From assembly GCA_032622095.1 (NCBI GenBank), contig CP136061.1, positions 2,728,001 through 2,792,000 on the forward strand: a DNA stretch of 64,000 nt, written 5' to 3'. Below, one piece after another: positions 6,610 through 64,000 of this stretch. Origin of the DNA: Siphonodentalium dalli (lineage: Eukaryota; Mollusca; Scaphopoda; Gadilida; Siphonodentaliidae). Position 1 is the first letter of the stretch. Every line of letters starts with the position of its first letter. Below the pieces are notes generated by a model that was not told the origin of the DNA, made no database searches, and saw only the letters and a list, made by a program, of their open reading frames with translations. Position numbers and translations under genes: made by a program.

Positions 6610-6680
6610 TAGTTCACATGAGGTCGTAACTGCGACACATCGAGTGACGTCGACCAATTGATGTGTTTTATCAGTTGCAG

Positions 6681-25829: not shown

Positions 25830-28030
25830 TTTGGGAAGCCGTCTTCATTGTGTGTAGGTCTTGTTAGGGAGTAAGATGTGTAAGGTTTCTTTCCTTAAGG
25901 AACCGAACACGGATATTCGAGTTTGGGGTATATATGTCCTTGAATCAAGTTATGGGAATATAATGGGGCATGTGTAGTTATGTAACAGTATGCCAGCATG
26001 CTGTTATCTGAGACCTTAATATAAGCCTCAATGTTCATTTCTGATTATGTGTTTAGTCGTAGGTCATATGATTCAGTATGCCAGCATGCTGTTATCAGAG
26101 ACCTTTATATAAGCCTCAATGTTCACTTCTGATTATGTGTTTACTCGTGGGTCATTTGATTCAGTATGCCAGGATGCTGTTATCAGAGACCTTTATATAA
26201 GCCTCAATGTTCTCTTCTGATTATGTTTTTAGTCGTGTGTCACCTGATTCAGTATGCCAGCATGCTGTTATTAGCGACCTTTATATAAGCCTCAATGTGC
26301 ACTTCTGATTATGTGTTTAGTCGTAGGTCATCCGATTCAGTATGCCAGCATGCTGTTATTAGAAATCTTTATATAAGCTTCAATGTTCACTTCTGAGTAT
26401 GTGTTTAGTCGTAGGTCATATGATTCAGTATGCCACGATGCTGTTATCAGAGACCTTTAGATAAGCCTCAATGTTCACTTATGATTATGTGTTTAGTCGT
26501 AGGTCATCTGATTCAGTATGCCAGCAAGCTGTTATTAGAGACCTTTATATAAGGCTCAATGTTCACTTCTGATTATGTGTTTAGTCGTAGGTCATCTGAT
26601 TCAGTATGCCAGCTTGCTGTTATTAGAAACCATTATAGTCGTAGCTCATCTGTGTCCATATGACAGCAAGCTGTTAATAGATACCTTTATATAAGCCTCA
26701 ATGTTCGCTTCTCATTATGTGTTTAGTCGTAGGTCATCCGATTCAGTATGCCAGCATGCTGTTATTATAAATCTTTATATAAGCCTCAATGTTCACTTCT
26801 GGGTATGTGTTTAGTCGTAGGTCATCTGATTCGGTGTGCCACTATGGTGTTATCAGAGACCTTTAGATAAGCCTCAATGTTCACTTCTGATTATGTGTTT
26901 AGTCGTAGGTCATCTGATCCAGTATGCCAGCATGCTGTTATGAGATACATTTATATAAGCCTCAATGTTCACTTCTGATTATGTGTTTAGTCGTAGATCA
27001 TCTGTGTCCATATGCCAGCAAGCTGTTAATAGAGACCTTTATATAAGCCTCAATGTTCACTTCTGATTATGTGTTTAGCGTAGGTCATCTGATTCAGTAT
27101 GCCAGCCTGCTGTTATTAGAGATATGTATATCAGCCGCAATGTTCACTTCAGGTTATGTGTTTAGTCGTAGGTCATCTGATTCAGTATGAAAGCATGCTG
27201 TTATTAGATACCTTTATATAACCCTCAATTTTCACTTCTGATTATGTGTTAGCCGCAGGTCATATGATTTAGTATGTCAGTATACTGTTATTAGAGACCT
27301 TTATATAAGCCTCAATATTCACTTCTGATTATGTGTTTAGTCGTAGGTCATCTGATTCAGTATGCCAGCAAGCTGTTATTATATACCTTTATATAAGGCT
27401 CAATATTCACTTCTGATTATGTGTTTAGTCGTGGGTCATCTGATTCAGTATGCCAGCATGCTGTTATCAGAGACATTTATATAAGCCTCAATGTTCACTT
27501 CTGAATATATGTTTAGTCGTAGGTCATCTGATTCAGTATGCCAGCATGCTGTTATCAGATACCTTTATATAAGCCTCAATGTTCACTTCTGATTATGTGT
27601 TTAGTCGTAGGTCATCCGATTCAGTATGCCAGCATGCTGTTATTAGAAATTTTTATATAAGCCTCAAAGTTCACTTCTGATTATGTGTTTAGTCGTAGTT
27701 CATCTGATTCGGTATGCCAGCATGCTGTTATTATATACCTCTATATACGCCTCAATGTTCACTTCTGATTATGTGTTTAGTCGTAACTCATCTGATTCAG
27801 TATGTCAGCATGCTGTTATTGTAGACCTTTATATAAGCCTCAATGTTCACGTCTGGTTATTAGTTTAGTCGTTGGTCATTTGATTCAGTATGCCAGCATG
27901 CTGTTGTTAGATACATTTACATAAGCCTCAATTTTCAATTCTGATTATGTGTTTAGGCGTAGGTCATCTGCTTCAGTATGCCAGCATGCTGTTATTGGAG
28001 ACCTTTATATAAGCCACAATGTTCACTTCT

Positions 28031-29964
28031 GATTATGTGTTTAGTCGTATGTCATCTGATTCAGTATGCCACCATGCTGTTATTAGATACCTTTATATAA
28101 GCCTTAATGTTCACTTCTGATTATGTGTTTAGTCGTAGTTTATCTGATTCAGTATGTCAGCATGCTGTTATTAGAGACCTTTATATAAGCCTCAATGTTC
28201 TCTTCTAATTATGTGTTTAGTCGTGGCTCATCTGATTCAGTACGTCAGCATGCTGTTATTAGAGACCTTTATATAACCCTCAATGTTCACTTCTGATTAA
28301 GTGTTTAGTCGTATGTCATCTGATTCAGTATGCCACCATGCTGTTATTAGATACCTTTATATAAGCCTCGATGTTCACTTCTGATTATGTGTTTAGTCGT
28401 AGGTCATCCGATTCAGTATGCCAGCATGCTGTTATTATAAATTTTTATATAAGCCTCAATGTTCACTTCTGAGTATGTGTTTAGTCGTAGGTCATCTGAT
28501 TCAGTATGCCACTATGCTGTTATTAGAGACCTTTATATAAGCCACAATGTTCACTTCTGAGTATGTGTTTAGTCGTAGGTCATCTGATTCAGTATGCCAT
28601 CATGCTGTTATTAGATAACTTTATATAAGCCTCAATGTTCACTTCTGTTTTTTTGTTTAGTCGTAGGTCATCTGATTCAGTATGCCAGCATGCTGTTATT
28701 AGAGACCTTTATATAAGTCTCAATGTTCACCTCTGAGTATTTGTTTAGTCGTAGTTCATCTGATTCAGTGTGCCAGCATGATGTTATTAAAGACCTTTAT
28801 ATAAGACTCAATGTTCACTTCTGATTATGTGTTTAGTCGTAGTTCATCTGATTCGGTATGCCAGCATACTGTTATTATAGACCTTTATATAAGCCACAAT
28901 GTTCACTTCTGATTATGTGTTTATTCGTAGTTCATCTGATTCGGTATGCCAGCATACTGTTATTATAGACCTTTATATAAGCCTCAATGTTCACTTCTGA
29001 TTATGTGTTTATTCGTAGTTCATCTGATTCGGTATGCCAGCATACTGTTATTATAGACCTTTATATAAGCCTCAATGTTCACTTCTGATTATGTGTTTAG
29101 TCGTAGTTCATCTGATTCGGTATGTCAGCATGCTGTTATTAGAGACCTTTATATACGCCTCAACGTTCACTTCTGATTATGTGTTTAGTCGTAGTTCATC
29201 TGATTCGGTATGCCAACAAGCTGTTATTAGAGACCTTTATATAAGCCACAATGTTCACTTCTGATTATGTGTTTAGTCGTCGGTCATCTGATTCAGTATG
29301 CCAGCATGCTGTTATTAGAGACCTTTATATAAGTATCAATGTACACATCTGATTATGTGTTTAGTCGTAGTTCATCTGATTCGGTATGCCAGCATGCTGT
29401 TATTAGATACCTTTGTATAAGCCTCAATGTTCACTTCTGATTATGTGTTTAGTCGTAGGTCATCTGATTCAGTATATCAGCATGCTGTTATTGTAGAACT
29501 TTATATAAGCCTCGATGTTCACTTCTGATTATGTGTTTAGTCGTAGGTCATCTGATTCAGTATGCCAGCATGCTGTTATTAGAGACCTTTATATAAGCCT
29601 CAATGTTCACTTCTGATTATGTGTTTAGTCGTATGTCATCTGATTCAGTATGCCACCATGCTGTTATTAGATACCTTTATATAAGCCTTAATGTTCACTT
29701 CTGATTATGTGTTTAGTCGTAGTTTATCTGATTCAGTATGTCAGCATGCTGTTATTAGAGACCTTTATATAAGCCTCAATGTTCTCTTCTAATTATGTGT
29801 TTAGTCGTGGCTCATCTGATTCAGTACGTCAGCATGCTGTTATTAGAGACCTTTATATAACCCTCAATGTTCACTTCTGATTAAGTGTTTAGTCGTATGT
29901 CATCTGATTCAGTATGCCACCATGCTGTTATTAGATACCTTTATATAAGCCTAGATGTTCACTT
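28031..29964. repeat. 1,584-bp higher-order duplication in 88-bp array
   Basis: Variant monomers at about 28031-28380 recur at about 29615-29964, an offset of 1,584 bp (18 monomers). Shared markers include GCCACCATGCTG, ATATAACCCTCAATG and CTGATTAAGTGTTTAG. A further marker, ATGAGCCTCAATGTTCTC, recurs at about 30033 and 30909. Confidence 0.8.
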
Positions 29965-32900
29965 CTGATTATGTGTTTATTCGTATGTCATCTGATTCAG
30001 TATGTCAGCATGCTGTTATTAGAGACCTTTATATGAGCCTCAATGTTCTCTTCTAATTATGTGTTTAGTCGTAGCTCATCTGATTCAGTACGTCAGAATG
30101 CTGTTATTAGAGACCTTTATATAAGCCTCAATGTTCACTTCTGATTAAGTTTTTAGTCGTAGTTAATCTCATTCAGTATGCCAGCATGCTGTTATTAGAG
30201 ACCTTAATATAGGCCGCAATGTTCACTTCTGATTATGTGTTTATTCGTAGGTCATCTGATTCAGTATGCCAGCATGCTGTTATTATATACCTTTATATAA
30301 GCCTCGATGTTCACTTCTGATTATGTGTTTAGTCGTAGGTCATCTGATTCAGTATGCCAGCATGCTGTTATTAGAGACCTTTATATAATCCTCATTGTTC
30401 ACTTCTGATTATGTGTTTAGTCGTATGTCATCTGAATCAGTATGCCAGCATGCTGTTATTAGATACCTTTATATAAGCCTTAATGTTCACTTCTGATTAT
30501 GTGTTTAGTCGTAGTTCATCTGATTCAGTATGCCAGCATGCTGTTATTAGAGACCTTTATATAAGCCTCAGTGTTCACTACTGATTATGGGTTTAGTCGT
30601 AATTCATCTGATTCAGTATGCCAGCATGCTGTTATTAGAGACCTTTATATAAGCCACAATGTTCACTTCTGATTATGTGTTTAGTCGTCGGTCATCTGAT
30701 GCAGTATGCCAGCATGCTGTTATTAGAGACCTTTATATAAGTATCAATGTACACATCTGATTATGTGTTTAGTCGTAGTTCATCTGATTCAGTATGTCAG
30801 CATGCTGTTATTAGATACCTTTATATAAGCCTCGATGTTCACTTCTGATTATGTGTTTATTCGTATGTCATCTGATTCAGTTTGTCAGCATGCTGTTATT
30901 AGAGACCTTTATATGAGCCTCAATGTTCTCTTCTAATTATGTGTTTAGTCGTAGCTCATCTGATTCAGTACGTCAGAATGCTGTTATTAGAGACCTTTAT
31001 ATAAGCCTCAATGTTCACTTCTGATTAAGTGTTTAGTCGTAGTTAATCTCATTCAGTATGCCAGCATGCTGTTATTAGAGACCTTTATATAAGCCTCAGT
31101 GTTCACTACTGATTATGTGTTTAGTCGTAGGTCATCTGATTCAGTATGCCAGCATGCTGTTATTAGAGACCTTTAGATAAGCCTCTATGTTCACTTCTGA
31201 TTATGTGTTTAGTCGTAGGTCATCTGATTCAGTATGCCATCATGCTGTTATTAGATAACTTTATATAAGCCTCAATGTTCATTTCTGTTTTTTTGTTTAG
31301 TCGTAGATCATCTGATTCAGTATGTCAGCATGCTGTTATTAGAGACCTTTATATAAGCCTCAATGTTCACTTCTGATTATGTGTTTAGTCGTAGTTCATC
31401 TGATTCGGTATGCCAGCATACTGTTTTTTATAGACCTTTATATAAGCCTCAATGTTCACTTCTGATTATGTGTTTAGTCGTAGGTCATCTGATTCAGTAT
31501 GCCATCATGCTGTTATTAAATAACTTTATATAAGCCTCAATGTTCACTTCTGTTTTTTTGTTTAGTCGTAGATCATCTGATTCAGTATGCCAGCATGCTG
31601 TTATTAGAGACCTTTATATAAGCCTCAATGTTCACTTCTGATTATGTGTTTAGTCGTCGGTCATCTGATTCGGTATGCCAGCATACTATTATTATAGACC
31701 TTTATATAAGCCTCAATGTTCACTTCTGATTATGTGTTTAGTCGTAGTTCATCTGATTCGGTATGCCAGCATACTATTATTATAGACCTTTATATAAGCC
31801 TCAATGTTCACTTCTGATTATGTGTTTAGTCGTAGGTCATCTGATTCAGAATGCCAACATGCTGTTATTAGAGACCTTTATATAAGCCTCAATGTTCACT
31901 TCGGATTATGTGTTTAGTCGTAGGTCATCTGATTCAGTATGTCAGCATGCTGTTGTTAGAGACCTTTATATAAGCCTTAATGTTCACTTCTGTTTTTTTG
32001 TTTAATCGTAGATCATCTGATTCAGTATGCCAGCATGATGTTATTAAAGACCTTTATATAAGCCTCAATGTTCACTTCTGGTTATGTGTTTAGTCGAAGG
32101 TCATTTGATTCAGTATGCCAGCATGCTGTTATTAGAGACATTTATATAAGCCTCAGTGTTCACTTTTGATAATGTGTTTAGTGGTAGGTCATCTGATTCA
32201 GTATGTCAGCATGCTGTTATTAGAGACCCTTATATAAGCCTCAATGTTCACTTCTGATTATGTGTTTAGTCGTAGTTCATCTGATTCGGTATGCCAGCAT
32301 ACTGTTATTATAGACCGTTATATAAGCCTCAATGTTCACTTCTGATTATGTGTTTAGTCGTAGGTCATCTGATTCAGTATGTCAGCATGCTGTTATTAGA
32401 GACCTTTAGATAAGCCTCTATGTTCACTTCTGATTATGTGTTTAGTCGCAGGTCATCTGATTCAGTATGTCAGCATGCTGTTGTTATAGACCTTTATATA
32501 AGCCTCAATGTTCACTTCTGAGTATGTGTTTAGTCGTAGGTCATCTGATTCAGTATGCCATCATGCGGTTGTTATAGACCTTTATATAAGCCTTAATGTT
32601 CACTTCTGTTTTTTTGTTTAATCGTAGATCATCTGATTCAGTATGCCAGCATGATGTTATTAAAGACCCTTATATAAGCCTCAATGTTCACTTCTGATTA
32701 TGTGTTTAGTCGTAGTTCATCTGATTCGGTATGCCAGCATACTGTTATTATAGACCTTTATATAAGCCTCAATGTACACTTCTGATTATGTATTTACTCG
32801 TAGTTCATCTGATTCGGTATGCCAGCATACTGTTATTATAGACCTTTATATAAGCCTCAATGTTCACTTCTGAGTATGTGTTTCGACGTAGGTCATCTGA

Positions 32901-35734
32901 TTCAGTATGCCAGCATGCTGTTATTAGAGACCTGTATATAAGCCTCGCTGTTCACTTCTGATTATTATGTATTTAGTCGTAGGTCATCTGATTCAGTATG
33001 CGAGAATGCTGTTATTAGAGACCTTTATATAAGCCTCAATGTTCACTTCTGATTATGTGTTTTGTCGTATGTCATCTGATTCAGTATGCCAGCATACTGT
33101 TATTAGAAACCTTTATATAAGCCTCAATGTTCACTTCTGATTTTGTGTTTAGTCGTAGGTCATCTGATTCAGTATGCCAGCATGCTGTTATAAGATACCT
33201 TTATATAGGCCTCAGTGTTCACTTCTAATTATGTGTTTAGTCGTAGGTCATCTGATTCAGTATGCCAGCATACTGTTATTAGAGACCTTTAGATAAGCCT
33301 CTATGTTCACTTCTGATTATGTGTTTAGTCGTAGGTCATCTGATCCAGTATGTCAGCATGCTGTTATAGACCTTTATATAAGCCTCAATGTTCACTTCTG
33401 AGTATGTGTTTAGTCTTATGTCATCTGATTCAGTATGCCAGCCTGCTGTTATTAGAGACCTTTATTTTAGCCTCACTGTTCATTTCTGATTATTTGTTTA
33501 GTCCTAGGTCATCTGCTTCATTGTCCCAGCATGCTGTTATTAGAGACCTTTATATAAGCCTCAATGTTCACCTCTGATTATGTGTTTAGTCGTATGTCAT
33601 CTGATTCAGTATACCAGCATGCTTTTATTAGAGACCTTTATATAGGCCTCAATGTTCACTTCTGTTTATGTGTTTAGTCGTAGGCCATCTCAGTCAGTAT
33701 GCCAGCTTGCTGTTATTAGATATCTTTATATAAGCCTCAATGTTCACTTCTGATTATGTGTTTAGTCGTAGGTCATCTGATTCAGTATGCCAGCATGCTG
33801 TTATTAGAGACCTGTATATAATCCTCGCTGTTCACTTCTGATTATTATGTGTTTAGTCGTAGGTCATCTGATTCAGTATGCGAGAATGCTGTTATTAGAG
33901 ACCTTTATATAAGCCTCAATGTTCACTTCTGATTATGTGTTTTGTCGTATGTCATCTGATTCAGTATGCCAGCATACTGTTATTAGAAACCTTTATATAA
34001 GCCTCAATGTTCACTTCTGATTTTGTGTTTAGTCGTAGGTCATCTGATTCAGTATGCCAGCATGTTGTTATAAGATACCTTTATATAGGCCTCAGTGTTC
34101 ACTTCTAATTATGTGTTTAGTCGTAGGTCATCTGATTCAGTATGCCAGCATACTGTTATTAGAGTCCTTTATATAAGCCTCAATGTTCACTTCTGATTAC
34201 GTGTTTAGTCGTAGGTCATCTGATTCAGTGTGCATCTGATTCAGTATGCTGTTATTAGATACCTTTATATAAGCCTCAATGTTCACTTCTGATTTTGCGT
34301 TTAGTCGTAGGTCATCTGATTCAGTATGCCAGTATGCTGTCATTAGAGATCTTTATATAAGCTTCAATGTTCACTTCTGATTGTGTGTTTATTCGTAGGT
34401 CATCTGATTCAGTATGTCAGCATGCTGTTATTAGAGACCTTTATATAAGCTTCAATGTTCACTTCTGATTATTTGTTTATTCGTAGGTCATCTGATTCAG
34501 TGTGCCAGCATGCTGTTATTAGAAACCTTTACATAAGCCTCTATGTTCACTTCTGATTATGTGTTTAGTCGTGGGTAATCTGATTCAGTATGCCAGGATG
34601 CTGTTATCAGAGACCTTTATAGAAGCATCAATGTTCACTTCTGATTATGTGTTTAGTCGTAGGTCATCTGATTCAGTGTGCCAGCATGCTGTTATTAGAA
34701 ACATTTACAGAAGCCTCTATGTTCACTTCAGATTATGTGTTTAGTCGTGGGTAATCTGATTCAGTATGCCAGCATGCTGTTCCTAAAGACCATTATACAA
34801 GCCTCAATGTTCACTTCTGAGTATGTGTTTAATCGTAGGTCATCTGATTCAGTATGTCAGCATGCTGTTACCAGAGACCTTTATATAAGCCTCACTGTTC
34901 ACTTCTGATTATGTGTTTAGTCGTAGGTGATCTGATTCGGTATGCCAGCATGCTGTTATTAGAGACCTTTATATAAGCCTCAATGTTCACTTCTGTTTGT
35001 GTACTTAGTCGTTGGTCATCTGATTCAGTATGCCAGTATGCTGTTCTTAGAGACCTTTACATAAGCCTCAATGTTCACTTCTGATTTTGTGTTTAGTCGT
35101 AGGTCATCTGATTCAGTATGCCAGAATGCTGTTATCAGATACCTTTATATAGGCCTCAGTGTTCACTTCTAATTATGTGTTTAGTCGTAGGTCATCTGAT
35201 TCAGTATGCCAGCATACTGTTATTAGAGTCCTTTATATAAGCCTCAATGTTCACTTCTGATTATGTGTTTTGTCGTAGGTCATCTGATTCAGTGTGCATC
35301 TGATTCAGTATGCTGTTATTAGATACCTTTATATAAGCCTGAATGTTCACTTCTGATTTCATTTTTAGTCGTAGGTCATCTGATTCAGTATGCCAGTATG
35401 CTGTCATTAGATACCTTAATATAAGCCTCAATGTTCACTTCTGATTATGTGTTTAGTCGTAGGTCATCTGATTCAGTGTGCCAGCATGCTGATCTTAGAG
35501 ACCGTTATACATGTATAAGCCTCAATGTTCACTTCTCATTATGTGTTTTGTCGTAGGTCATTTGATTCAGTATGCCAGCATGCTGTTATTAGAGACCTTT
35601 ATTTTAGCCTCACTGTTCATTTCTGATTATGTGTTTAGTCCTAGGTCATCTGCTTCATTGTCCCAGCATTCTTTTATTAGAGACCTTTATATAAGCATCA
35701 ATGTTCACGTCTGATTATGTGTTTAGTCGTAGGT

Positions 35735-38700
35735 CATCTGATTCAGTATGCCAGCATGCTGTTATTAGATATCTTTATATAAGCTTCAATGTTCACTTCT
35801 GATTATGTGTTTAGTCGTAGGTCATCTGATTCAGTATGCCAGCATGCTGTTGTTAGATAACTGTATATAAGCCTCGCTGTTCACTTCTGATTATTATGTG
35901 TTTAGTCGTAGGTCATCTGATTCAGTATGCGAGAATGCTGTTATTAGAGACCTTTATATAAGCCTCAATGTTCACTTCTGATTATATGTTTTGTCGTATG
36001 TCATCTGATTCAGTATGCCAGCATACTGTTATTAGAGACCGTTATATAAGCCTCAACGTTCACTTCTGATTTTGTGTTTAGTCGTCGGTCATCTGATTCA
36101 GTATGCCAGCATGCTGTTATAAGATACCTTTATATAGGCCTCAGTGTTCACTTCTGATTATGTGTTTTGTCGTATGTCATCTGATTCAGTATGCCAGCAT
36201 ACTGTTATTAGAGACCTTTATATAAGCCTCAATGTTCACTTCTGATTTTGTGTTTAGTCGTAGGTCATCTGATTCAGTATGCCAGCATACTGTTATAATA
36301 TACCTTTATATAGGCCTCAGTGTTCACTTCTGATTATGTATTTAGTCGTAGGTCATCTGATTCAGTATGCCAGCATGCTGTTGCTAGAGACCGTTATACG
36401 TGTACAAGCTTCATTTTTACATCTGATTATGTATTTAGTCGTAGGTCATCTGATACAGTATGCCCACATGCTGTTATTAAAGACCTTTATATCAGTATCA
36501 ATGTTCACTTCTGATTATGTGTTTATTCGTAGGTCATCTGATTCAGTATGTCAGCATGCTGTTATTAGAGACCTTTGTATAAGTCTCAACGTTCACTTCT
36601 GATTATGTGTTTAGTCGTAGTTCATCTGATTCAGTATGCCAGGATGCTGTTATTAGAGACCTTTATAGAAGCATCAATGTTCACTTCTGATTATGTGTTT
36701 AGTCGTAGGTCATCTGATTCAGTGTGCCAGCATGCTGTTATTAGAAACCTTTACATAAGCCTCTATGTTCACTTCTGAGTATGTGTTTAATCGTAGGTCA
36801 TCTGATTCAGTATGTCAGCATGCTGTTACTAGAGACCTTTATATAAGCCTCACTGTTCACTTCTGATTATGTGTTTAGTTGTAGGTGATCTGATTCAGTA
36901 TGCCAGCATGCTGTTATTAGAGACCTTTATATAAGCCTCAATGTTCACTTCTGTTTATGTATTTAGTCGTAGGTAATCTGATTCAGTATGCAAGTATGCT
37001 GTTCTTAGAGACCTTTACATAAGCCCCAATGTTCACTTTTGATTTTGTGTTTAGTTGTAGGTCATCTGATTTAGTATGCCAGCATGCTGTTATAAGTTAC
37101 CTTTATATAGGCCTCAGTGTTCACTTCTAATTATGTGTTTAGTCGTAGGTCATCTGATTCAGTGTGCCAGCATGCTGATCTTAGAGACCGTTATACATGT
37201 ATAAGCCTCAATGTTCACTTCTCATTATGTGTTTAGTCGTAGGTCATTTGATTCAGTATGCCAGCATGCTGTTATTAGAGACCTTTATTTTAGCCTCACT
37301 GTTCATTTCTGATTATGTGTTTAGTCCTAGGTCATCTGCTTCATTGTCCCAGCATTCTTTTATTAGAGACCTTTATATAAGCATCAATGTTCACGTCTGA
37401 TTATGTGTTTAGTCGTAGGTCATCTGATTCAGTATGCCAGCATACTGTTATTAGAGACCTTTATATAAGCCTCAATGCTCACTTTTGATTATGTGTTTAG
37501 TCGTATGTCATCTGATTCAGTATACCAGCATGCTTTTATTAGAGACCTTTATATAAGCCTCAATGTTCACTTCTGAGTATGTGTTTAGTCGTAGGTCATC
37601 TGATTCAGTATGCCAGCATGCTGTTATTAGATATCTTTATATAAGCTTCAATGTTCACTTCTGATTATGTGTTTAGTCGTAGGTCATCTGATTCAGTATG
37701 CCAGCATGCTGTTGTTAGATAACTGTATATAAGCCTCGCTGTTCACTTCTGATTATTATGTGTTTAGTCGTAGGTCATCTGATTCAGTATGCGAGAATGC
37801 TGTTATTAGAGACCTTTATATAAGCCTCAATGTTCACTTCTGATTATATGTTTTGTCTTATGTCATCTGATTCAGTATGCCAGCATACTGTTATTAGAGA
37901 CCTTTATATAAGCCTCAACGTTCACTTCTGATTTTGTGTTTAGTCGTCGGTCATCTGATTCAGTATGCCAGCATGCTGTTATAAGATACCTTTATATAGG
38001 CCTCAGTGTTCACTTCTGATTATGTGTTTTGTCGTATGTCATCTGATTCAGTATGCCAGCATACTGTTATTAGAGACCTTTATATAAGCCTCAATGTTCA
38101 CTTCTGATTTTGTGTTTAGTCGTAGGTCATCTGATTCAGTATGCCAGCATGCTGTTATAATATACCTTTATATAGGCCTCAGTGTTCACTTCTGATTATG
38201 TATTTAGTCGTAGGTCATCTGATTCAGTATGCCAGCATGCTGTTGCTAGAGACCGTTATACGTGTACAAGCTTCATTTTTACATCTGATTATGTATTTAG
38301 TCGTAGGTCATCTGATACAGTATGCCCGCATGCTGTTATTAAAGACCTTTATATCAGTATCAATGTTCACTTCTGATTATGTGTTTATTCGTAGGTCATC
38401 TGATTCAGTATGTCAGCATGCTGTTATTAGAGACCTTTGTATAAGTCTCAACGTTCACTTCTGATCATGTGTTTAGTCGTAGTTCATCTGATTCAGTATG
38501 CCAGGATGCTGTTATTAGAGACCTTTATAGAAGCATCAATGTTCACTTCTGATTATGTGTTTAGTCGTAGGTCATCTGATTCAGTGTGCCAGCATGCTGT
38601 TATTAGAAACCTTTACATAAGCCTCTATGTTCACTTCTGAGTATGTGTTTAATCGTAGGTCATCTGATTCAGTATGTCAGCATGCTGTTACTAGATACCT

Positions 38701-39010
38701 TTATATAAGCCTCACTGTTTACTTCTGATTATGTGTTTAGTTGTAGGTGATCTGATTCAGTATGCCAGCATGCTGTTATTAGAGACCTTTATATAAGCCT
38801 CAATGTTCACTTCTCTTTATGTATTTAGTCGTAGGTAATCTGATTCAGTATGCAAGTATGCTGTTCTTAGAGACCTTTACATAAGCCCCAATGTTCACTT
38901 CTGATTTTGTGTTTAGTTGTAGGTCATCTGATTTAGTATGCCAGCATGCTGTTATAAGTTACCTTTATATAGGCCTCAGTGTTCACTTCTAATTATGTGT
39001 TTAGTCGTAG
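35735..39010. repeat. 1,862-bp higher-order repeat in 88-bp array
   Basis: Markers recur at an offset of exactly 1,862 bp. TGTTAGATAACTGTATATAA occurs at 35851 and 37713, CCGTTATACGTGTACAAGC at 36391 and 38253, and TTATAAGTTACC at 37090 and 38952. Parts recur again around 39,800-41,200 with monomers lost or gained. A neighbouring marker pair (35511 and 37197) is offset by 1,686 bp, two monomers less, showing an internal gain or loss. Confidence 0.85.
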
Positions 39011-42879: not shown

Positions 42880-43140
42880 AATGTTCACTTACGATTATGT
42901 GTTTAGTCGTAGGTCATCTGCTTCAGTATGCCGGCATGCTGTTATTAGAAACCTTTACATAAGCATCAATGTTCACTTACGATTATGTGTTTAGTCGTAG
43001 GTCATCTGCTTCAGTATGCCGGCATGCTGTTATTAGAAACCTTTACATAAGCATCAATGTTCACTTACGATTATGTGTTTAGTCGTAGGTCATCTGCTTC
43101 AGTATGCCAGCATGCTGTTATTAGAAACCTTTACATAAGA
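42880..43140. repeat. Near-identical monomer triplet in 88-bp array
   Basis: Three successive monomers share CACTTACGATTATG, ATCTGCTTCAG and AAACCTTTACATAAGC, a combination not common elsewhere. This suggests a recent single-monomer expansion. Confidence 0.75.
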
Positions 43141-43299
43141 CTCAATGTTCACTTCTGATTATGTGTTTAGTCGTAGGTCATCTGATTCACTATGCCAGCA
43201 TGCTGTTATTAGAGACCTTTATATAAGCATCAATGTTCACTTACGATTATGTGTTTAGTCGTAGGTCATCTGATTCAGTATGTCAGCATGCTGTTATTA

Positions 43300-50220: not shown

Positions 50221-50399
50221 TGTGTTTAGTCGTAGGTCATCTGATTCAGTATGTTAGCATGCTGTTATTAGAGACCTTTATATTAGCCTCAATGTTCACT
50301 TCTGAGTATGTGTTTAGTCGTAGGTAATCTTATTCAGTATGCCAGCGTGCTATTATTATAGACCTTTATATAAGTCTCAATGTTCACTTCTGAGTATGT

Positions 50400-51540: not shown

Positions 51541-51893
51541 TTTGTTTAGTCGTGTGTCATCTGATTCAGTATGTCAGCATGCTGTTATTAGAGACCTTTA
51601 TGTAAGCCTCAATGTTCACTTCTGATTATGTGTTTAGTAGTAGGTCATCTGATTCAGTATGTCAGCATGCTGTTAGTAGAGACCTTTATATAAGCCTCAA
51701 TGTTCACTTCTGATTATGTGTTTAGTCGCACGGCATCTGGTTCAGTATGTCAGCATGCTGTTATTAGAGACCTTTATATAAGCCTCAATGTTCACTTCTG
51801 ATTATGTGTTTAGTCGTTGGTCATCTGATTCAGTATGTCAGCATGCTGTTATTAGAGACCTTTATATAAGCCTAAATGTTCACTTCTGATTAT

Positions 51894-53350
51894 GTGTTGG
51901 TCGTATGTCATCTGATTCAGTATGCCAGCATGCTGTTATTAGAGACCTTTATATAAGCCTCAATGTTCAATTCTGATTATGTGTTTAGTCGTTGGTCATC
52001 TGATTCAGTATGTCAGCATGCTGTTATTAGAGACCGTTATATAAGCTTCAATGTTCACTTCTGATTATGTGTTGGTCGTATGTCATCTGATTCAGTATGC
52101 CAGCATGCTGTTATTAGAGACCTTTATATAAGCCTCAATGTTCAATTCTGATTATGTGTTTAGTCGTTGGTCATCTGATTCAGTATGTCAGCATGCTGTT
52201 ATTAGAGACCGTTATATAAGCTTCAATGTTCACTTCTGATTATGTGTTGGTCGTATGTCATCTGATTCAGTATGCCAGCATGCTGTTATTAGAGACCTTT
52301 ATATAAGCCTCAATGTTCAATTCTGATTATGTGTTTAGTCGTTGGTCATCTGATTCAGTATGTCAGCATGCTGTTATTAGAGACATTTATATAAGCCTAA
52401 ATGTTCACTTCTGATTATGTGTTTAGTCGTAGGTCATCAGATTCAGTATTTCAGCATGCTGTTATTAGAGACCTTTGTATAAGCCTAAATGTTCACTTCT
52501 GATTATGTGTTAGTCGTAGGTCATCTGATTCAGTATGTCAGCATGCTGTTATTAGATACCTTTATATAAGCCTCAATGTTCAATTCTGATTATGTGTTGG
52601 TCGTATGTCATCTGATTCAGTATGCCAGCATGCTGTTATTAGAGACCTTTATATAAGCCTAAATGTTCACTTCTGATTATGTGTTTAGTAGTAGGTCATC
52701 TGATTCAGTATGTCAGCAAGCTGTTATTAGAGACCTTTATATAAGCCTCGATGTTCACTTCTGATTATGTGTTGGTCGTATGTCATCTGATTCAGTATGT
52801 CAGCATGCTGTTATTAGATACCTTTATATAAGCCTCAATGTTCAATTCTGATTATGTGTTTAGTCGTATGTCATCTGATTCAGTATGCCAGCATGCTGTT
52901 ATTAGAGACCTTTATATAAGCCTCAATGTTCAATTCTGATTATGTGTTTAGTCGTTGGTCATCTGATTCAGTATGTCAGCATGCTGTTATTAGAGACCGT
53001 TATATAAGCTTCAATGTTCACTTCTGATTATGTGTTGGTCGTATGTCATCTGATTCAGTATGCCAGCATGCTGTTATTAGAGACCTTTATATAAGCCTCA
53101 ATGTTCAATTCTGATTATGTGTTTAGTCGTTGGTCATCTGATTCAGTATGTCAGCATGCTGTTATTAGAGACCGTTATATAAGCTTCAATGTTCACTTCT
53201 GATTATGTGTTGGTCGTATGTCATCTGATTCAGTATGCCAGCATGCTGTTATTAGAGACCTTTATATAAGCCTCAATGTTCAATTCTGATTATGTGTTTA
53301 GTCGTTGGTCATCTGATTCAGTATGTCAGCATGCTGTTATTAGAGACATT
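51894..53350. repeat. 175-bp dimeric higher-order repeat in 88-bp array
   Basis: An 87-bp monomer with GTGTTGGTCGTATGTC alternates with an 88-bp monomer with GTTCAATTCTGATTATG and GTCGTTGGTC. The marker GTGTTGG occurs at 51894, 52069, 52244, 52594, 52769, 53032 and 53207. Steps are 175 or 350, with one step of 263 where a monomer was inserted. Confidence 0.9.
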
Positions 53351-53389
53351 TATATAAGCCTCAATGTTCACGTCTGATTATGTGTTTTA

Positions 53390-56300
53390 GTCGTAGGTCA
53401 TCTGATTCAGTATGCCAGCATGCTGTTATTAGAGACCTTTATATAAGCCCCAGTGTTCACTTCTGTTTATGTGTTTAGTCGTAGGTCATCTGATTCAGTA
53501 TGCCAGCATACTGTTATTAGAGACCTTTATATAAGCCTCAATGCTCACTTTTGATTATATGTTTAGTCGTATGTTATCTGATTCAGTATACCAGCATGTT
53601 TTTGTTAGAGACCTTTATATAAGCCTCAGTGTTCACTTCTGAGTATGTGTTTAGTCGTAGGTCATCTGATTCAGTATGCCAGCATGCTGTTATTAGATAC
53701 CTTTATATAAGCCTCAATGTTCACGTCTGATTATGTGTTTAGTCGTAGGTCATCTGATTCAGTATGCCAGCATGCTGTTATTAGATACCTTCATATAAGC
53801 CTCAATGTTCACTTCTGATTATGTGTTTAGTCGTAGGTCATCTGATTCAGTATGCCAGCATGCTGTTATTAGATACCTTTATATAAGCCTCAATGTTCAC
53901 TTCTGATTATGTGTTTAGTCGTAGGTCATCTGATTCAGTATGCCAGCACGCTGTTATTAGATACCTTTATATAAGCCTCAATGTTCACGTCTGATTATGT
54001 GTTTAGTCGTAGGTCCTCTGATTCAGTATGCCAGCATGCTGTTATTAGATACCTTTATATAAGCCTCAATGTTCACTTCTGATTATGTGTTTAGTCGTAG
54101 GTCATCTGATTCAGTATGCCAGCATGCTGTTATTAGATACCTTTATATAAGCCTCAATGTTCACGTCTGATTATGTGTTTAGTCGTAGGTCATCTGATTC
54201 AGTATGCCAGCATACTGTTATTAGAGACCTTTATGTAAGCCTCAATGTTCACTTCTGATTATGTGTTTAGTCGTAGGTCATCTGATTCAGTATGCCAGCA
54301 TGCTGTTATTAGAGACCTTTATATAAGCCTCAATGTTCACTTCTGATTTTGTGTTTAGTCGTTGGTCACCTGATTCAGTATGCCAGTATGCTGTTCTTAG
54401 AGGCGTTTACATAAGCCTCAATGTTCACTTCTGATTTTGTGTTTAGTCGTTGGTCATCTGATTCAGTATGCCAGCGTGCTGTTATTAGATACCTTTATAT
54501 AGGCCTCAATGTTCACTTCTGATTATGTGTTTAGTCGTAGATCATCTGATACAGTATGCCAGCATGCTGTTGTTAGAGACCGTTATACATGTATAAGCCT
54601 CAATGTTCACTTGTGATTATGTTTTTAGTCGTATGTCATCTGATTCAGTCTGTCAGCATGCTGTTATTAGAGACCTTTATATAAGCCTCAATGTTCACTT
54701 CTGATTATGTGTTTAGTCGTAGGTCATCTGATTCAGTATGCCAGCATACTGTTATTAGAGACCTTTATATAAGCCTCAATGTTCACTTCTAATTATGTGT
54801 TTAGTCGTAGGTCATCTGATTCAGTATGCCCGCGTGCTGTTATTATATACCTTTATATAAGCCTCAATGTTCACTTCTGATTATGTGTTTAGTCGTAGGT
54901 CATCTGATCCAGTATGCCAAGATGCTGATGTTAGAGACCTTTATATAAGCCTCAATGTTCACTTCACATTATGTGTTAAGTCGTAAGTCATCTGATTCAG
55001 TATGTCAGCATGCTGTTATTAGAGACCTTTATTTGAGCCTCACTGTTCATTTCTGATTATGTGTTTAGTCGTAGGTCATCTGATTCAGTATTCCAGCATG
55101 CTGTTGTTATAGACCGTAATACATGTATAAGCCTCAATGTTCACTTGTGATCATGTATTTAGTCGTAGGTCATCTGATTCAGTCTGACAGCATGCTGTTA
55201 TTAGAGACCTTTATATAAGCCTCAATGTTCACGTCTGATTATGTGTTTAGTCGTAGGTCATCTGATTCAGTATGTCCGCATACTGTTATTAGATACCGTT
55301 ATATAAGCCTCAATGTTCACTTCTGATTATGTGTTTTAGTCGAAGGTCAACTGATTCAGTATGTCAGTATGCTGCTATTAGAGACCGTTATACATGTATA
55401 AGCCTTAATGTTCACTTCTGATTATGTGTTTAGTCGTAGGTCAACTGATTCAGTATGCCAGCATGCTGTTATTAGATACCTTTATATACGCCTCAATGTT
55501 CACTTCTGATTATGTGTTTTAGTCGTTGGTCATCTGATTCAGTATGCCAGCCTACTGTTATTAGAGACCTTTATATAAGCCTCAATATTCACTTTTGATA
55601 ATGTGTTTAGTCGTATGTCATCTGATTCAGTATACCAGCATGCTTTTATTAGAGACCTTTATATAAGCCTCATTGTTCACTTCTGAGTATGTGTTTAGTC
55701 GTAGGTCATCTGATTCAGTATGCCAGCATGCTGTTATTAGATACCTTTATATAAGCCTCAATGTTCACTTCTGATTATGTGTTTAGTCGTAGGTCATCTG
55801 ATTCAGTATGCCAGCATGCTGTTATTAGATACCTTTATATAAGCCTCAATCTTCACGTCTGATTATGTGTTTAGTCGTAGGTCATCTGATTCAGTATGCC
55901 AGCATACTGTTATTAGAGACCTTTATATAAGCCTCAATGTTCACTTCTGATTATGTGTTTAGTCGTAGGTCATCTGATTCAGTATGCCAGCATGCTGTTA
56001 TTAGATACCTTTATATAAGCCTCAATGTTCACGTCTGATTATGTGTTTAGTCGTAGGTCATCTGATTCAGTATGCCAGCATGCTGTTATTAGATACCTTC
56101 ATATAAGCCTCAATGTTCACTTCTGATTATGTGTTTAGTCGTAGGTCATCTGATTCAGTATGCCAGCATGCTGTTATTAGATACCTTTATATAAGACTCA
56201 ATGTTCACTTCTGATTATGTGTTTAGTCGTAGGTCATCTGATTCAGTATGCCAGCATGCTGTTATTAGAGACCTTTATATAAGCCTCAATGTTCACTTCT

Positions 56301-59300
56301 GATTTTGTGTTTAGTCGTAGGTCATCTGATTCAGTATGCCAGCATGCTGTTATTATATACCTTTATTTGAGCCTCACTGTTCATTTCTGATTATGTGTTT
56401 AGTCGTAGGTCATCTGATTCAGTATGCCAGCATACTGTTATTAGAGACCTTTATATAAGCCTCAATGCTCACTTTTGATTATATGTTTAGTCATATGTCA
56501 TCTGATTCAGTATACAAGCATGCTTTTATTAGAGACCTTTATATAAGCCTCAGTGTTCACTTCTGAGTATGTGATTAGTCGTAGGTCATCTGATTCAGTA
56601 TGCCAGCATGCTGTTATTAGATACCTTTATATAAGCCTCAATGTTCACTTCTGATTATGTGTTTAGTCGTAGGTCATCTGATTCAGTATGCCAGCCTGCT
56701 GTTATTAGATACCGTTATATAAGCGGCAATGTTCACGTCTGATTATGTGTTTAGTCGTAGGTCATCTGATTCAGTATGCCAGCATGTTGTTATTATAGAC
56801 CTTTATATAAGCCTCAATGTACACTCCTGATTATGTGTTTAGTTCGTAGGTCATCTGATTCAGTATGCCAGCATGCTGTTATTAGAGACCTTTATATAAG
56901 CCTCAATGTTCACTCCTGATTATGTGTTTAGTTCGTAGGTCATCTGATTCACTATGCCAGCATAGTGTTATTAGATACCTTTATATAAGCATCAATGTTC
57001 ACTCCTGATTATGTGTTTAGTTCGTAGGTCATCTGATTCAGTATGCCAGCATGCTGTTATTAGATACCTTTATATAAGCCTCAATGTTCACGTCTGATTA
57101 TGTGTTTAGTCGTAGGTCCTCTGATTCAGTATGCCAGCATGCTGTTATTAGATACCTTTATATAAGCCTCAATGTTCACTTCTGATTATGTGTTTAGTCG
57201 TAGGTCATCTGATTCAGTATGCCAGCATGCTGTTATTAGATACCTTTATATAAGCCTCAATGTTCACGTCTGATTATGTGTTTAGTCGTAGGTCATCTGA
57301 TTCAGTATGCCAGCATACTGTTATTTGAGACCTTTATGTAAGCCTCAATGTTCACTTCTGATTATGTGTTTAGTCGTAGGTCATCTGATTCAGTATGCCA
57401 GCATGCTGTTATTAGAGACCTTTATATAAGCCTCAATGTTCACTTCTGATTTTGTGTTTAGTCGTTGGTCACCTGATTCAGTATCCCAGTATGCTGTTCT
57501 TAGAGACGTTTACATAAGCCTCAATGTTCACTTCTGATTTTGTGTTTAGTCGTTGGTCATCTGATTCAGTATGCCAGCGTGCTGTTATTAGATACCTTTA
57601 TATAGGCCTCAATGTTCACTTCTGATTATGTGTTTAGTCGTAGATCATCTGATACAGTATGCCAGCATGCTGTTGATAGAGACCGTTATACATGTATAAG
57701 CCTCAATGTTCACTTGTGATTATGTTTTTAGTCGTATGTCATCTGATTCAGTCTGTCAGCATGCTGTTATTAGAGACCTTTATATAAGCCTCAATGTTCA
57801 CTTCTGATTATGTGTTTAGTCGTAGGTCATCTGATTCAGTATGCCAGCATACTGTTATTAGAGACCTTTATATAAGCCTCAATGTTCACTTCTAATTATG
57901 TGTTTAGTCGTAGGTCATCTGATTCAGTATGCCCGCGTGCTGTTATTATATACCTTTATATAAGCCTCAATGTTCACTTCTGATTATGTGTTTAGTCGTA
58001 GGTCATCTGATCCAGTATGCCAATATGCTGATGTTAGAGACCTTTATATAAGCCTCAATGTTCACTTCACATTATGTGTTAAGTCGTAAGTCATCTGATT
58101 CAGTATGTCAGCATGCTGTTATTAGAGACCTTTATTTGAGCCTCACTGTTCATTTCTGATTATGTGTTTAGTCGTAGGTCATCTGATTCAGTATTCCAGC
58201 ATGCTGTTGTTATAGACCGTAATACATGTATAAGCCTCAATGTTCACTTGTGATCATGTATTTAGTCGTAGGTCATCTGATTCAGTCTGACAGCATGCTG
58301 TTATTAGAGACCTTTATATAAGCCTCAATGTTCACGTCTGATTATGTGTTTAGTCGTAGGTCATCTGATTCAGTATGTCCGCATACTGTTATTAGATACC
58401 GTTATATAAGCCTCAATGTTCACTTCTGATTATGTGTTTTAGTCGAAGGTCAACTGATTCAGTATGTCAGTATGCTGCTATTAGAGACCGTTATACATGT
58501 ATAAGCCTTAATGTTCACTTCTGATTATGTGTTTAGTCGTAGGTCAACTGATTCAGTATGCCAGCATGCTGTTATTAGATACCTTTATATAAGCCTCAAT
58601 GTTCACTTCTGATTATGTGTTTTAGTCGTTGGTCATCTGATTCAGTATGCCAGCCTACTGTTATTAGAGACCTTTATATAAGCCTCAATACTCACTTTTG
58701 ATTATGTGTTTAGTCGTATGTCATCTGATTCAGTATACCAGCATGCTTTTATTAGAGACCTTTATATAAGCCTCATTGTTCACTTCTGAGTATGTGTTTA
58801 GTCGTAGGTCATCTGATTAAGTATGCCAGCATGCTGTTATTAGATACCTTTATATAAGCCTCAATGTTCACGTCTGATTATGTGTTTAGTCGGAGGTCAT
58901 CTGATTCAGTATGCCAGCATGCTGTTATTAGATACCTTTATATAAGCCTCAATGTTCACGTCTGATTATGTGTTTAGTCGGAGGTCATCTGATTCAGTAT
59001 GCCAGCATGCTGTTATTAGATACCTTTATATAAGCCTCAATGTTCACGTCTGATTATGTGTTTTAGTCGTAGGTCATCTGATTCAGTATGCCAGCATGCT
59101 GTTATTAGAGACCTTTATATAAGCCCCAGTGTTCACTTCTGTTTATGTGTTTAGTCGTAGGTCATCTGATTCAGTATGCCAGCATACTGTTATTAGAGAC
59201 CTTTATATAAGCCTCAATGCTCACTTTTGATTATATGTTTAGTCGTATGTTATCTGATTCAGTATACCAGCATGTTTTTGTTAGAGACCTTTATATAAGC

Positions 59301-62300
59301 CTCAGTGTTCACTTCTGAGTATGTGATTAGTCGTAGGTCATCTGATTCAGTATGCCAGCATGCTGTTATTAGATACCTTTATATAAGCCTCAATGTTCAC
59401 TTCTGATTATGTGTTTAGTCGTAGGTCATCTGATTCAGTATGCCAGCATGCTGTTATTAGATACCTTTATATAAGCCTCAATCTTCACGTCTGATTATGT
59501 GTTTAGTCGTAGGTCATCTGATTCAGTATGCCAGCATACTGTTATTAGAGACCTTTATATAAGCCTCAATGTTCACTTCTGATTATGTGTTTAGTCGTAG
59601 GTCATCTGATTCAGTATGCCAGCATGCTGTTATTAGATACCTTTATATAAGCCTCAATGTTCACGTCTGATTATGTGTTTAGTCGTAGGTCATCTGATTC
59701 AGTATGCCAGCATGCTGTTATTAGATACCTTCATATAAGCCTCAATGTTCACTTCTGATTATGTGTTTAGTCGTAGGTCATCTGATTCAGTATGCCAGCA
59801 TGCTGTTATTAGATACCTTTATATAAGCCTCAATGTTCACTTCTGATTATGTGTTTAGTCGTAGGTCATCTGATTCAGTATGCCAGCACGCTGTTATTAG
59901 ATACCTTTATATAAGCCTCAATGTTCACGTCTGATTATGTGTTTAGTCGTAGGTCCTCTGATTCAGTATGCCAGCATGCTGTTATTAGATACCTTTATAT
60001 AAGCCTCAATGTTCACTTCTGATTATGTGTTTAGTCGTAGGTCATCTGATTCAGTATGCCAGCATGCTGTTATTAGATACCTTTATATAAGCCTCAATGT
60101 TCACGTCTGATTATGTGTTTAGTCGTAGGTCATCTGATTCAGTATGCCAGCATACTGTTATTAGAGACCTTTATGTAAGCCTCAATGTTCACTTCTGATT
60201 ATGTGTTTAGTCGTAGGTCATCTGATTCAGTATGCCAGCATGCTGTTATTAGAGACCTTTATATAAGCCTCAATGTTCACTTCTGATTTTGTGTTTAGTC
60301 GTTGGTCACCTGATTCAGTATGCCAGTATGCTGTTCTTAGAGACGTTTACATAAGCCTCAATGTTCACTTCTGATTTTGTGTTTAGTCGTTGGTCATCTG
60401 ATTCAGTATGCCAGCGTGCTGTTATTAGATACCTTTATATAGGCCTCAATGTTCACTTCTGATTATGTGTTTAGTCGTAGATCATCTGATACAGTATGCC
60501 AGCATGCTGTTGTTAGAGACCGTTATACATGTATAAGCCTCAATGTTCACTTGTGATTATGTTTTTAGTCGTATGTCATCTGATTCAGTCTGTCAGCATG
60601 CTGTTATTAGAGACCTTTATATAAGCCTCAATGTTCACTTCTGATTATGTGTTTAGTCGTAGGTCATCTGATTCAGTATGCCAGCATACTGTTATTAGAG
60701 ACCTTTATATAAGCCTCAATGTTCACTTCTAATTATGTGTTTAGTCGTAGGTCATCTGATTCAGTATGCCCGCGTGCTGTTATTATATACCTTTATATAA
60801 GCCTCAATGTTCACTTCTGATTATGTGTTTAGTCGTAGGTCATCTGATCCAGTATGCCAAGATGCTGATGTTAGAGACCTTTATATAAGCCTCAATGTTC
60901 ACTTCACATTATGTGTTAAGTCGTAAGTCATCTGATTCAGTATGTCAGCATGCTGTTATTAGAGACCTTTATTTGAGCCTCACTGTTCATTTCTGATTAT
61001 GTGTTTAGTCGTAGGTCATCTGATTCAGTATTCCAGCATGCTGTTGTTATAGACCGTAATACATGTATAAGCCTCAATGTTCACTTGTTATCATGTATTT
61101 AGTCGTAGGTCATCTGATTCAGTCTGACAGCATGCTGTTATTAGAGACCTTTATATAAGCCTCAATGTTCACGTCTGATTATGTGTTTAGTCGTAGGTCA
61201 TCTGATTCAGTATGTCCGCATACTGTTATTAGATACCGTTATATAAGCCTCAATGTTCACTTCTGATTATGTGTTTTAGTCGAAGGTCAACTGATTCAGT
61301 ATGTCAGTATGCTGCTATTAGAGACCGTTATACATGTATAAGCCTTAATGTTCACTTCTGATTATGTGTTTAGTCGTAGGTCAACTGATTCAGTATGCCA
61401 GCATGCTGTTATTAGATACCTTTATATAAGCCTCAATGTTCACTTCTGATTATGTGTTTTAGTCGTTGGTCATCTGATTCAGTATGCCAGCCTACTGTTA
61501 TTAGAGACCTTTATATAAGCCTCAATACTCACTTTTGATTATGTGTTTAGTCGTATGTCATCTGATTCAGTATACCAGCATGCTTTTATTAGAGACCTTT
61601 ATATAAGCCTCATTGTTCACTTCTGAGTATGTGTTTAGTCGTAGGTCATCTGATTCAGTATGCCAGCATGCTGTTATTAGATACCTTTATATAAGCCTCA
61701 ATGTTCACGTCTGATTATGTGTTTAGTCGGAGGTCATCTGATTCAGTATGCCAGCATGCTGTTATTAGATACCTTTATATAAGCCTCAATGTTCACGTCT
61801 GATTATGTGTTTAGTCGGAGGTCATCTGATTCAGTATGCCAGCATGCTGTTATTAGATACCTTTATATAAGCCTCAATGTTCACGTCTGATTATGTGTTT
61901 TAGTCGTAGGTCATCTGATTCAGTATGCCAGCATGCTGTTATTAGAGACCTTTATATAAGCCCCAGTGTTCACTTCTGTTTATGTGTTTAGTCGTAGGTC
62001 ATCTGATTCAGTATGCCAGCATACTGTTATTAGAGACCTTTATATAAGCCTCAATGCTCACTTTTGATTATATGTTTAGTCGTATGTTATCTGATTCAGT
62101 ATACCAGCATGTTTTTGTTAGAGACCTTTATATAAGCCTCAGTGTTCACTTCTGAGTATGTGATTAGTCGTAGGTCATCTGATTCAGTATGCCAGCATGC
62201 TGTTATTAGATACCTTTATATAAGCCTCAATGTTCACTTCTGATTATGTGTTTAGTCGTAGGTCATCTGATTCAGTATGCCAGCATGCTGTTATTAGATA

Positions 62301-64000
62301 CCTTTATATAAGCCTCAATCTTCACGTCTGATTATGTGTTTAGTCGTAGGTCATCTGATTCAGTATGCCAGCATACTGTTATTAGAGACCTTTATATAAG
62401 CCTCAATGTTCACTTCTGATTATGTGTTTAGTCGTAGGTCATCTGATTCAGTATGCCAGCATGCTGTTATTAGATACCTTTATATAAGCCTCAATGTTCA
62501 CGTCTGATTATGTGTTTAGTCGTAGGTCATCTGAATCAGTATGCCAGCATGCTGTTATTAGATACCTTCATATAAGCCTCAATGTTCACTTCTGATTATG
62601 TGTTTAGTCGTAGGTCATCTGATTCAGTATGCCAGCATGCTGTTATTAGATACCTTTATATAAGCCTCAATGTTCACTTCTGATTATGTGTTTAGTCGTA
62701 GGTCATCTGATTCAGTATGCCAGCACGCTGTTATTAGATACCTTTATATAAGCCTCAATGTTCACGTCTGATTATGTGTTTAGTCGTAGGTCCTCTGATT
62801 CAGTATGCCAGCATGCTGTTATTAGATACCTTTATATAAGCCTCAATGTTCACTTCTGATTATGTGTTTAGTCGTAGGTCATCTGATTCAGTATGCCAGC
62901 ATGCTGTTATTAGATACCTTTATATAAGCCTCAATGTTCACGTCTGATTATGTGTTTAGTCGTAGGTCATCTGATTCAGTATGCCAGCATACTGTTATTA
63001 GAGACCTTTATGTAAGCCTCAATGTTCACTTCTGATTATGTGTTTAGTCGTAGGTCATCTGATTCAGTATGCCAGCATGCTGTTATTAGAGACCTTTATA
63101 TAAGCCTCAATGTTCACTTCTGATTTTGTGTTTAGTCGTTGGTCACCTGATTCAGTATGCCAGTATGCTGTTCTTAGAGACGTTTACATAAGCCTCAATG
63201 TTCACTTCTGATTTTGTGTTTAGTCGTTGGTCATCTGATTCAGTATGCCAGCGTGCTGTTATTAGATACCTTTATATAGGCCTCAATGTTCACTTCTGAT
63301 TATGTGTTTAGTCGTAGATCATCTGATACAGTATGCCAGCATGCTGTTGTTAGAGACCGTTATACATGTATAAGCCTCAATGTTCACTTGTGATTATGTT
63401 TTTAGTCGTATGTCATCTGATTCAGTCTGTCAGCATGCTGTTATTAGAGACCTTTATATAAGCCTCAATGTTCACTTCTGAGTATGTGTTTAGTCGTAGG
63501 TCATCTGATTCAGTATGCCAGCATACTGTTATTAGAGACCTTTATATAAGCCTCAATGTTCACTTCTAATTATGTGTTTAGTCGTAGGTCATCTGATTCA
63601 GTATGCCCGCGTGCTGTTATTATATACCTTTATATAAGCCTCAATGTTCACTTCTGATTATGTGTTTAGTCGTAGGTCATCTGATCCAGTATGCCAAGAT
63701 GCTGATGTTAGAGACCTTTATATAAGCCTCAATGTTCACTTCACATTATGTGTTAAGTCGTAAGTCATCTGATTCAGTATGTCAGCATGCTGTTATTAGA
63801 GACCTTTATTTGAGCCTCACTGTTCATTTCTGATTATGTGTTTAGTCGTAGGTCATCTGATTCAGTATTCCAGCATGCTGTTGTTATAGACCGTAATACA
63901 TATATAAGCCTCAATGTTCACTTGTGATCATGTATTTAGTCGTAGGTCATCTGATTCAGTCTGACAGCATGCTGTTATTAGAGACCTTTATATAAGCCTC
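53390..64000. repeat. 2,837-bp higher-order repeat, about 4 copies, open at right end
   Basis: The marker GTTGGTCACCTGATTCAG occurs at 54361, 57464, 60301 and 63138. The last two intervals are each exactly 2,837 bp (32 monomers plus small insertions). The first is 3,103 bp, three monomers longer, and includes monomers with CACTCCTGATTATG and TTTAGTTCGTAGG at about 56,820-57,030. A second marker, AGCCCCAGTGTTCAC (59122, 61959), confirms 2,837 bp. Copies differ by only a few substitutions in the stretches I compared. The fourth copy is cut by the window end. Confidence 0.92.

Follow-up and report, generated by a model that had tools for sequence, protein, structure and literature searches.

An 88-bp satellite array in a scaphopod genome

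The DNA analysed here, which we call the window, is a stretch of 64,000 nucleotides from the scaphopod mollusc Siphonodentalium dalli (GenBank assembly GCA_032622095.1, contig CP136061.1, positions 2,728,001 to 2,792,000 of the forward strand), and its right-hand part is occupied by a satellite array built on a single 88-bp monomer. The array runs from 25,986 to 64,000 in window coordinates, lies entirely on the plus strand, consists of ~430 head-to-tail copies over ~38 kb and continues past the window end. Tandem Repeats Finder reports a period of 88 at 25,986-26,637 and at 26,636-64,000, and wrap-around alignment to the consensus divides the array into 432 segments, 427 of them full monomers and 347 exactly 88 bp long. 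All 19,058 exact matches to 13-mers of the monomer lie on the plus strand, either in this array or in a small, separate one at 16920-18180 (plus strand, 14 full copies; defined by Tandem Repeats Finder, 13-mers and its consensus). There are no inverted monomers, with no monomer 13-mer on the minus strand, and no such 13-mer occurs within the window outside the two 88-bp arrays. The consensus of the small array is identical to that of the large one over 88/88 bp, and the two are separated by ~8 kb of unrelated DNA. The original prediction of an 88-bp array at 25987-64000 that reaches the window end is therefore borne out by Tandem Repeats Finder, wrap-around alignment and 13-mer counts alike.

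The array is non-coding satellite DNA: it consists of many head-to-tail copies of one unit in one orientation (432 segments on one strand), without coding or known RNA content. It contains no closed stop-to-stop frame of at least 110 aa (frames open at the window end fall outside this listing), no Rfam family reaches its gathering score in the window, and a tRNA search of the window with bacterial settings found none. No product or function is indicated, and the simplest account is that the array is satellite DNA of a selfish or structural kind. As for relatives of the monomer, one 31-base string had no match in viral contigs, one 23-base string had none in prokaryotic contigs, a 601-base query from the small array had none among phages and plasmids, all of which is to be expected of animal DNA, and the 88-bp sequence was not found in print in open-licence papers.

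Block copies of many sizes on one monomer

Six amplification units, of 175, 966, 1,584, 1,862, 2,837 and 3,003 bp, had been predicted to occupy separate zones of the array. All six offsets rank within the 25 commonest 24-mer offsets and their zones are separate; off-diagonals at these offsets, set beforehand as a check, are present when the array is compared with itself. Further offsets of 3,103, 963 (at a different place from 966), 880, 5,423/6,303 and 5,940 bp (= 2,837 + 3,103) were also found, and the unit sizes, expressed in monomers, are 2, 10, 11, 18, 21, 32, 34, 35 and 61. The statements on block copies that follow come from 100 of the 214 self-comparison matches of the array.

As a control for chance, the order of the 427 monomers was shuffled 60 times and runs of near-identical pairs (at most 1 difference, any lag) were counted. 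In the real order there are 17 runs of at least 4 monomers, the longest of 45, whereas the longest run in the shuffles is 3 and none reaches 4. Monomers left of 50 kb differ from one another by 9-12%, and the copies of the named blocks by 0-2%. What distinguishes a higher-order repeat, block copies far closer to each other than are the monomers inside the block, is thus found here, at 0-2% versus 6-12%.

All of the blocks are on the plus strand. The leftmost, an 18-monomer (1,584 bp) offset pair at 27939-28395 and 29523-29979, is 98.9% identical over only 457 bp. A 10-monomer (880 bp) offset relates 32844-33344 to 33724-34224 (98.0%) and is seen again near 30 kb among the 24-mer offsets. Two blocks recognised both in the self-comparison and as monomer runs are those at the 61-monomer (5,423 bp) offset, 33710-34470 and 39133-39893 (98.8%), and the 21-monomer (1,862 bp) pair at 35671-37163 and 37533-39025 (99.2%). 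The 34-monomer (3,003 bp) pair occupies 43510-46512 and 46513-49199, the match ending at 46,197 in the first copy and at 49,199 in the second. Identity within this pair is 99.75% across the first 1,616 bp and 98.6% across the next 1,072 bp, so that the copies (43510-46197 in the first) are 0.25% apart over the first 1.6 kb and 1.4% apart over the next 1.1 kb, through either patchy conversion or two events. An 11-monomer (966 bp) offset pair lies at 48701-49199 and 49667-50165 (99.2% over 499 bp).

To the right of these lies a 2-monomer zone (175 bp = 88+87) at 51751-53361, seen in the self-comparison and as monomer runs at ~51.77-52.39 and ~52.91-53.35 kb with mixed monomers in between. The segments 51,900-52,398 and 52,863-53,361 are identical at 499/499 bases, at the 963-bp (11-monomer) offset; the 2-mer run was therefore itself copied by a later 963-bp duplication, so that units are nested in places. 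The right end of the window is filled by a large unit, identified in the same two ways: a first copy of 35 monomers (3,103 bp) at 53919-57021, two copies of 32 monomers (2,837 bp) at 57022-59858 and 59859-62695, and a copy at 62696-64000 that is cut by the window end. Identity at offset 2,837 is 99.73% over 4,142 bp. The first 2,042 bp of the 35-monomer copy are 99.2% identical to the next large-unit copy, and its remainder is rearranged relative to that copy.

Among the matches listed, only the 32/35-monomer and 2-monomer units have more than two consecutive copies, and the 1,862-, 3,003-, 1,584-, 966- and 963-bp units form one tandem pair each. Pieces that recur further off include, at the least, parts of the 21-mer at 40.1-41.2 kb, of the 10-mer at 39.1-39.9 kb, and of the 34-mer/11-mer. 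For most units, 'block duplication' is a better description than 'higher-order array'. The predicted layering, with successive generations of higher-order units built on a single monomer, holds up nonetheless, given the contrast between 9-12% and 0-2% and the 2-mer run inside the 11-mer duplication.

Block duplications also occur in a 43-bp tandem array at the other end of the window (356-3487), at offsets of 1,642, 515 and 950 bp and with 98-99% identity. Growth by blocks is thus not peculiar to the 88-bp monomer.

Monomer register is kept at block junctions

A block junction well out of register would show as a large length change, and we scored length breaks of more than ~12 bp. Only seven segments have such a break and none of these is at a block junction: they are the left end of the array, the window end, a 54-bp monomer at 26,632, two copies of a 66-bp variant and two of a 125-bp variant, the duplication of these variants being due to their place within the 34-mer pair. 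Out-of-register block junctions, as a candidate feature of the array, were rejected on this result. Since the register is kept, small indels within monomers, among them a 5-bp insertion (TTATACATGTATAAG form) and another of 8 bp, account for unit lengths other than multiples of 88. For the same reason, the blocks most likely arose by out-of-step pairing between homologous monomers. Unequal exchange and break-induced replication, both proposed as mechanisms in satellite arrays in passages of PMC11034957, would both fit, and the sequence cannot separate the two.

We consider it quite unlikely that the higher-order units are assembly duplications, whether haplotype copies or repeat mis-joins. Satellites are a classic site of such errors, but the nine unit sizes (not all independent events) come with divergences that differ, from 0 to 2%, and the substitutions between copies are scattered: the 4,142-base match at offset 2,837 has 11 of them and no indel. 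The 34-mer pair contains one 1-bp shift (offset 3,003 to 3,002), and the block junctions keep the monomer register. A general assembly error therefore appears unlikely, although the pairs cannot each be cleared individually.

Divergence falls in a single step

Divergence from the consensus was taken after removal of 168/427 monomers as near-duplicates. In six successive zones from left to right it is 6.4, 5.3, 6.1, 6.0, 3.5 and 4.3%, the highest value being that of the zone at 26-28 kb (6.35%, standard error 0.45). Over the whole array divergence decreases from left to right (Spearman -0.21, p 0.0008); the part left of 50,350, however, has no trend (Spearman +0.09, p 0.21), and at 50,350 there is a step from 5.9% on the left to 4.0% on the right (Mann-Whitney p 3e-8, for a boundary picked after the data were seen). 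A steady left-to-right ageing was rejected, the profile being flat left of 50.35 kb and then falling in one step. The monomers had been predicted to be oldest at the left and most homogeneous to the right; the overall fall and the maximum at 26-28 kb agree with this, and the gradation does not, as divergence is flat between 26 and 50.35 kb. The array is thus younger, or was renewed more recently, at its right end, with no gradient on the left.

A pattern of this kind invites comparison with the layered-expansion model, in which, according to parts of PMC11034957, the newest, homogeneous repeat lies inside and older, diverged repeats lie outside. The array might then be the edge of a centromere or pericentromere and its layered units the centromeric pattern, an interpretation compatible with the origin that we favour below. 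Higher-order units of several generations, and a single zone of lower divergence away from the array edge, point in this direction. So does a 42-bp imperfect palindrome in the monomer, given that dyad symmetries are noted for centromeric DNA in an excerpt of PMC11639080. The predicted hairpin of this palindrome (-7.7 kcal/mol) lies below all 300 simple base shuffles, and the folding of the consensus dimer has a z of -2.77. Two monomers, moreover, measure 175-176 bp, close to the nucleosome repeat length. However, the units lie side by side, and divergence is flat for 24 kb before its single step. No CENP-B-box-like site was found at up to 1 mismatch from the core motif on either strand of the array, the box being a mammalian feature that is not required outside mammals. 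Block duplications are found in the unrelated 43-bp array as well, and the second, small 88-bp array lies 8 kb away across unrelated DNA. The likeness to centromeric layered expansion that had been proposed is therefore weak: the step is compatible with the model, but the side-by-side units, the 24 kb without a trend and the single visible edge do not speak for it. We give a centromere edge a small chance of being correct; sequence alone neither shows nor excludes a centromere role, and the array by itself says nothing about centromeres.

The common variants at sites 46, 47, 65, 69, 72, 82 and 84 fall within the 42-bp palindrome. Hairpin-driven mutation was tried as an account of variation and rejected: variability is not significantly higher in the palindrome (Mann-Whitney p 0.78), and variant frequency is unrelated to hairpin stability (Spearman -0.02, p 0.84).

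Monomer genealogy and the origin of the array

The majority sequence of the monomer is identical at 88/88 bases in 6/6 zones and in the small array. In five zones, monomers 1-3 apart differ by 8.70, 9.34, 9.26, 5.23 and 6.61 bases, as against 8.93, 9.32, 9.50, 5.62 and 6.68 in shuffled order, which amounts to a deficit of 0-7% in the difference between neighbours. We also compared the variance of pairwise differences with its expectation for independent sites in six segments, leaving out the later copies of the 34-mer and the 32-mer and running the test with and without near-duplicate removal. The ratios are 0.96, 1.36, 0.76, 1.22, 1.64 and 1.75; a simulated burst gives 0.95 (standard deviation 0.16), and simulated stepwise turnover gives means of 3.5, 5.9 and 7.3. 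The first stepwise simulations were too diverged (pairwise 0.24-0.39) and were repeated nearer the observed level. Nearest-neighbour distances are 0.017-0.035 in the array and 0.002-0.003 under simulated block turnover. The variance test took the place of another measure, pairwise distance divided by twice the divergence, which depends on site frequencies only and was therefore not kept as support for a star tree.

A rival origin is gradual growth, in which unequal exchange acted in slow steps on one or a few monomers at a time while gene conversion continued. Some common variants do occur across zones and in both arrays, and in three of five zones near neighbours show a weak excess likeness. 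When the simulated turnover involves at most 1 or 3 monomers, however, it gives near/all ratios of 0.23 and 0.42, where 0.93-1.00 is observed, and nearest-neighbour distances of 0.002, where 0.017-0.035 is observed, and we regard such an origin as unlikely. If blocks as large as 10 or 35 monomers turn over, the near/all ratio (0.90 and 1.02, respectively) does not exclude this, and only the nearest-neighbour distance does.

The variance test, the flat neighbour curve and the distant nearest neighbours favour instead a fast initial amplification, mostly independent mutation and later block duplication. We think it probable that the array originated by rapid amplification and then grew by in-register block duplication through unequal exchange or break-induced replication. 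It would first have been made fast, as many near-identical monomers, for example by rolling-circle or other replication-based amplification, and not through slow duplication of single neighbours. The monomers would then have mutated largely independently, to about 6%, and later growth would have come from the occasional duplication of whole blocks via out-of-step homologous pairing, in several places and at several times. The most recent of these duplications would be those of the 2-mer/11-mer zone, the 32-mer zone and the 34-mer zone, and the lower divergence right of 50.35 kb may mark a segment renewed more recently.

Several observations weigh against rapid amplification followed by block duplication. 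Neighbours are slightly but significantly closer than shuffled monomers in three of the five zones (2.5-7%, p 0.010-0.018), and there is variance beyond independence in 32.9-42.2 kb (1.34-1.37) and 53.5-64 kb (1.5-1.75). Single stepwise simulations fell as low as 1.0, 1.9 and 1.25, and simulated block turnover also produces a flat neighbour curve (near/all 0.90 with blocks up to 10, 1.02 with blocks up to 35); the simulations are simple and few, and the block-35 setting is still at a pairwise distance of 0.19. One form of the 5-bp insertion is common to monomers at 35.5, 42.0, 54.6 and 55.4 kb, on backgrounds that are partly different, and a close form is found at 55.1 kb. Variant frequencies are alike in the large and the small array for 84G>T (27.6/28.6%), 65C>T (18.3/21.4%) and 72G>A (14.5/14.3%), with n=14 in the small array; 46G>T reaches 12.9% in the large array but none of the 14 small-array monomers has it, and over all 264 variants the frequencies in the two arrays have a Spearman correlation of 0.28. 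The shared variants and the shared insertion form call for a mixed founder pool, exchange between arrays or hot sites, any of which would explain them. The monomer tree is not a pure star.

A more sweeping version would have one burst, such as rolling-circle amplification from circular DNA, after which all growth came from in-register duplication of blocks of 2 to ~35 monomers and single monomers hardly turned over, so that each block boundary could be dated; it would also place the centromere core in the part of the array beyond the window. We hold this combination to be very unlikely.

Comparison with other satellite arrays

As in primate alpha-satellite, the array is made of n-mer blocks whose copies are far closer to each other than are the monomers within a block, with several n-mer sizes per array (passages of PMC11276891). 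The array nevertheless falls outside the alpha-satellite pattern, with a monomer of 88 bp instead of ~171 bp and 6-12% divergence instead of the 20-40% between the monomers of a unit that the same passages give. It also differs in that most units are single pairs and that no CENP-B-box-like site was found at up to 1 mismatch. Among invertebrates, a higher-order arrangement of monomers is described or discussed in parts of the papers on root-knot nematodes (PMC3694981) and the scallop Adamussium colbecki (PMC5874043). In the nematode arrays, as far as those parts of PMC3694981 describe them, divergent satellites are joined at short conserved motifs; here there is one family and the register is kept. 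Higher-order satellite arrays are thus already known in primates and discussed for invertebrates, and the 88-bp array is another example.

Many satellite-like arrays of the Pacific oyster are carried by Cg_HINE (Helentron) elements, according to passages of PMC7492417, and like those it describes, the arrays in the window are tandem and non-coding and occur more than once in a region, the two that share a monomer lying 8 kb apart. We nonetheless judge it highly improbable that they are the central repeats of a mobile element of the Helentron/HINE type. Such arrays would share their left and right flanks, but the three visible edges of the two arrays have no common flank (400-bp flanks, best chance match E 2.1), and the two arrays start at different monomer positions. 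The arrays described in those passages of PMC7492417 are short, and the large array here, at more than 38 kb, is far longer.

If real, the array records in compact and readable form the way in which higher-order repeats originate outside primates. With many low-copy unit sizes side by side and the register kept, block growth can be separated from monomer turnover within one array.

Other features of the window

Transitions are unusually few in the 88-bp array and in other arrays of the window. The large 88-bp array has 16 transitions and 47 transversions between five block-copy sets and 529 and 678, respectively, among the deduplicated monomers. The corresponding counts are 35/42 in the small 88-bp array, 43/84 in the 43-bp array, 32/79 in a 50-bp array, 12/12 in a 61-bp array and 18/25 in four flank duplications. 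The 50-bp array, at 11188-13838, has 53 copies that are about equally alike at eight tested lags (0.93-0.94). Bases 1-361 of the window repeat 3376-3728 at 95.9%.

A 1.25-kb element at 4800-6056, which we take to be of the Harbinger type from its appearance, has 59-bp inverted ends (96.6%) and TAA at both ends. It is inserted in the 61-bp tandem array, as pieces at 4742-4800 match units beyond 6087. Finally, an open frame at 6662-6997 on the plus strand, one of four frames tested, contains a Pfam SRCR domain (PF00530, E 1.6e-29), which points to an animal source, and, judging by its AG/GT borders, reads like a single exon.

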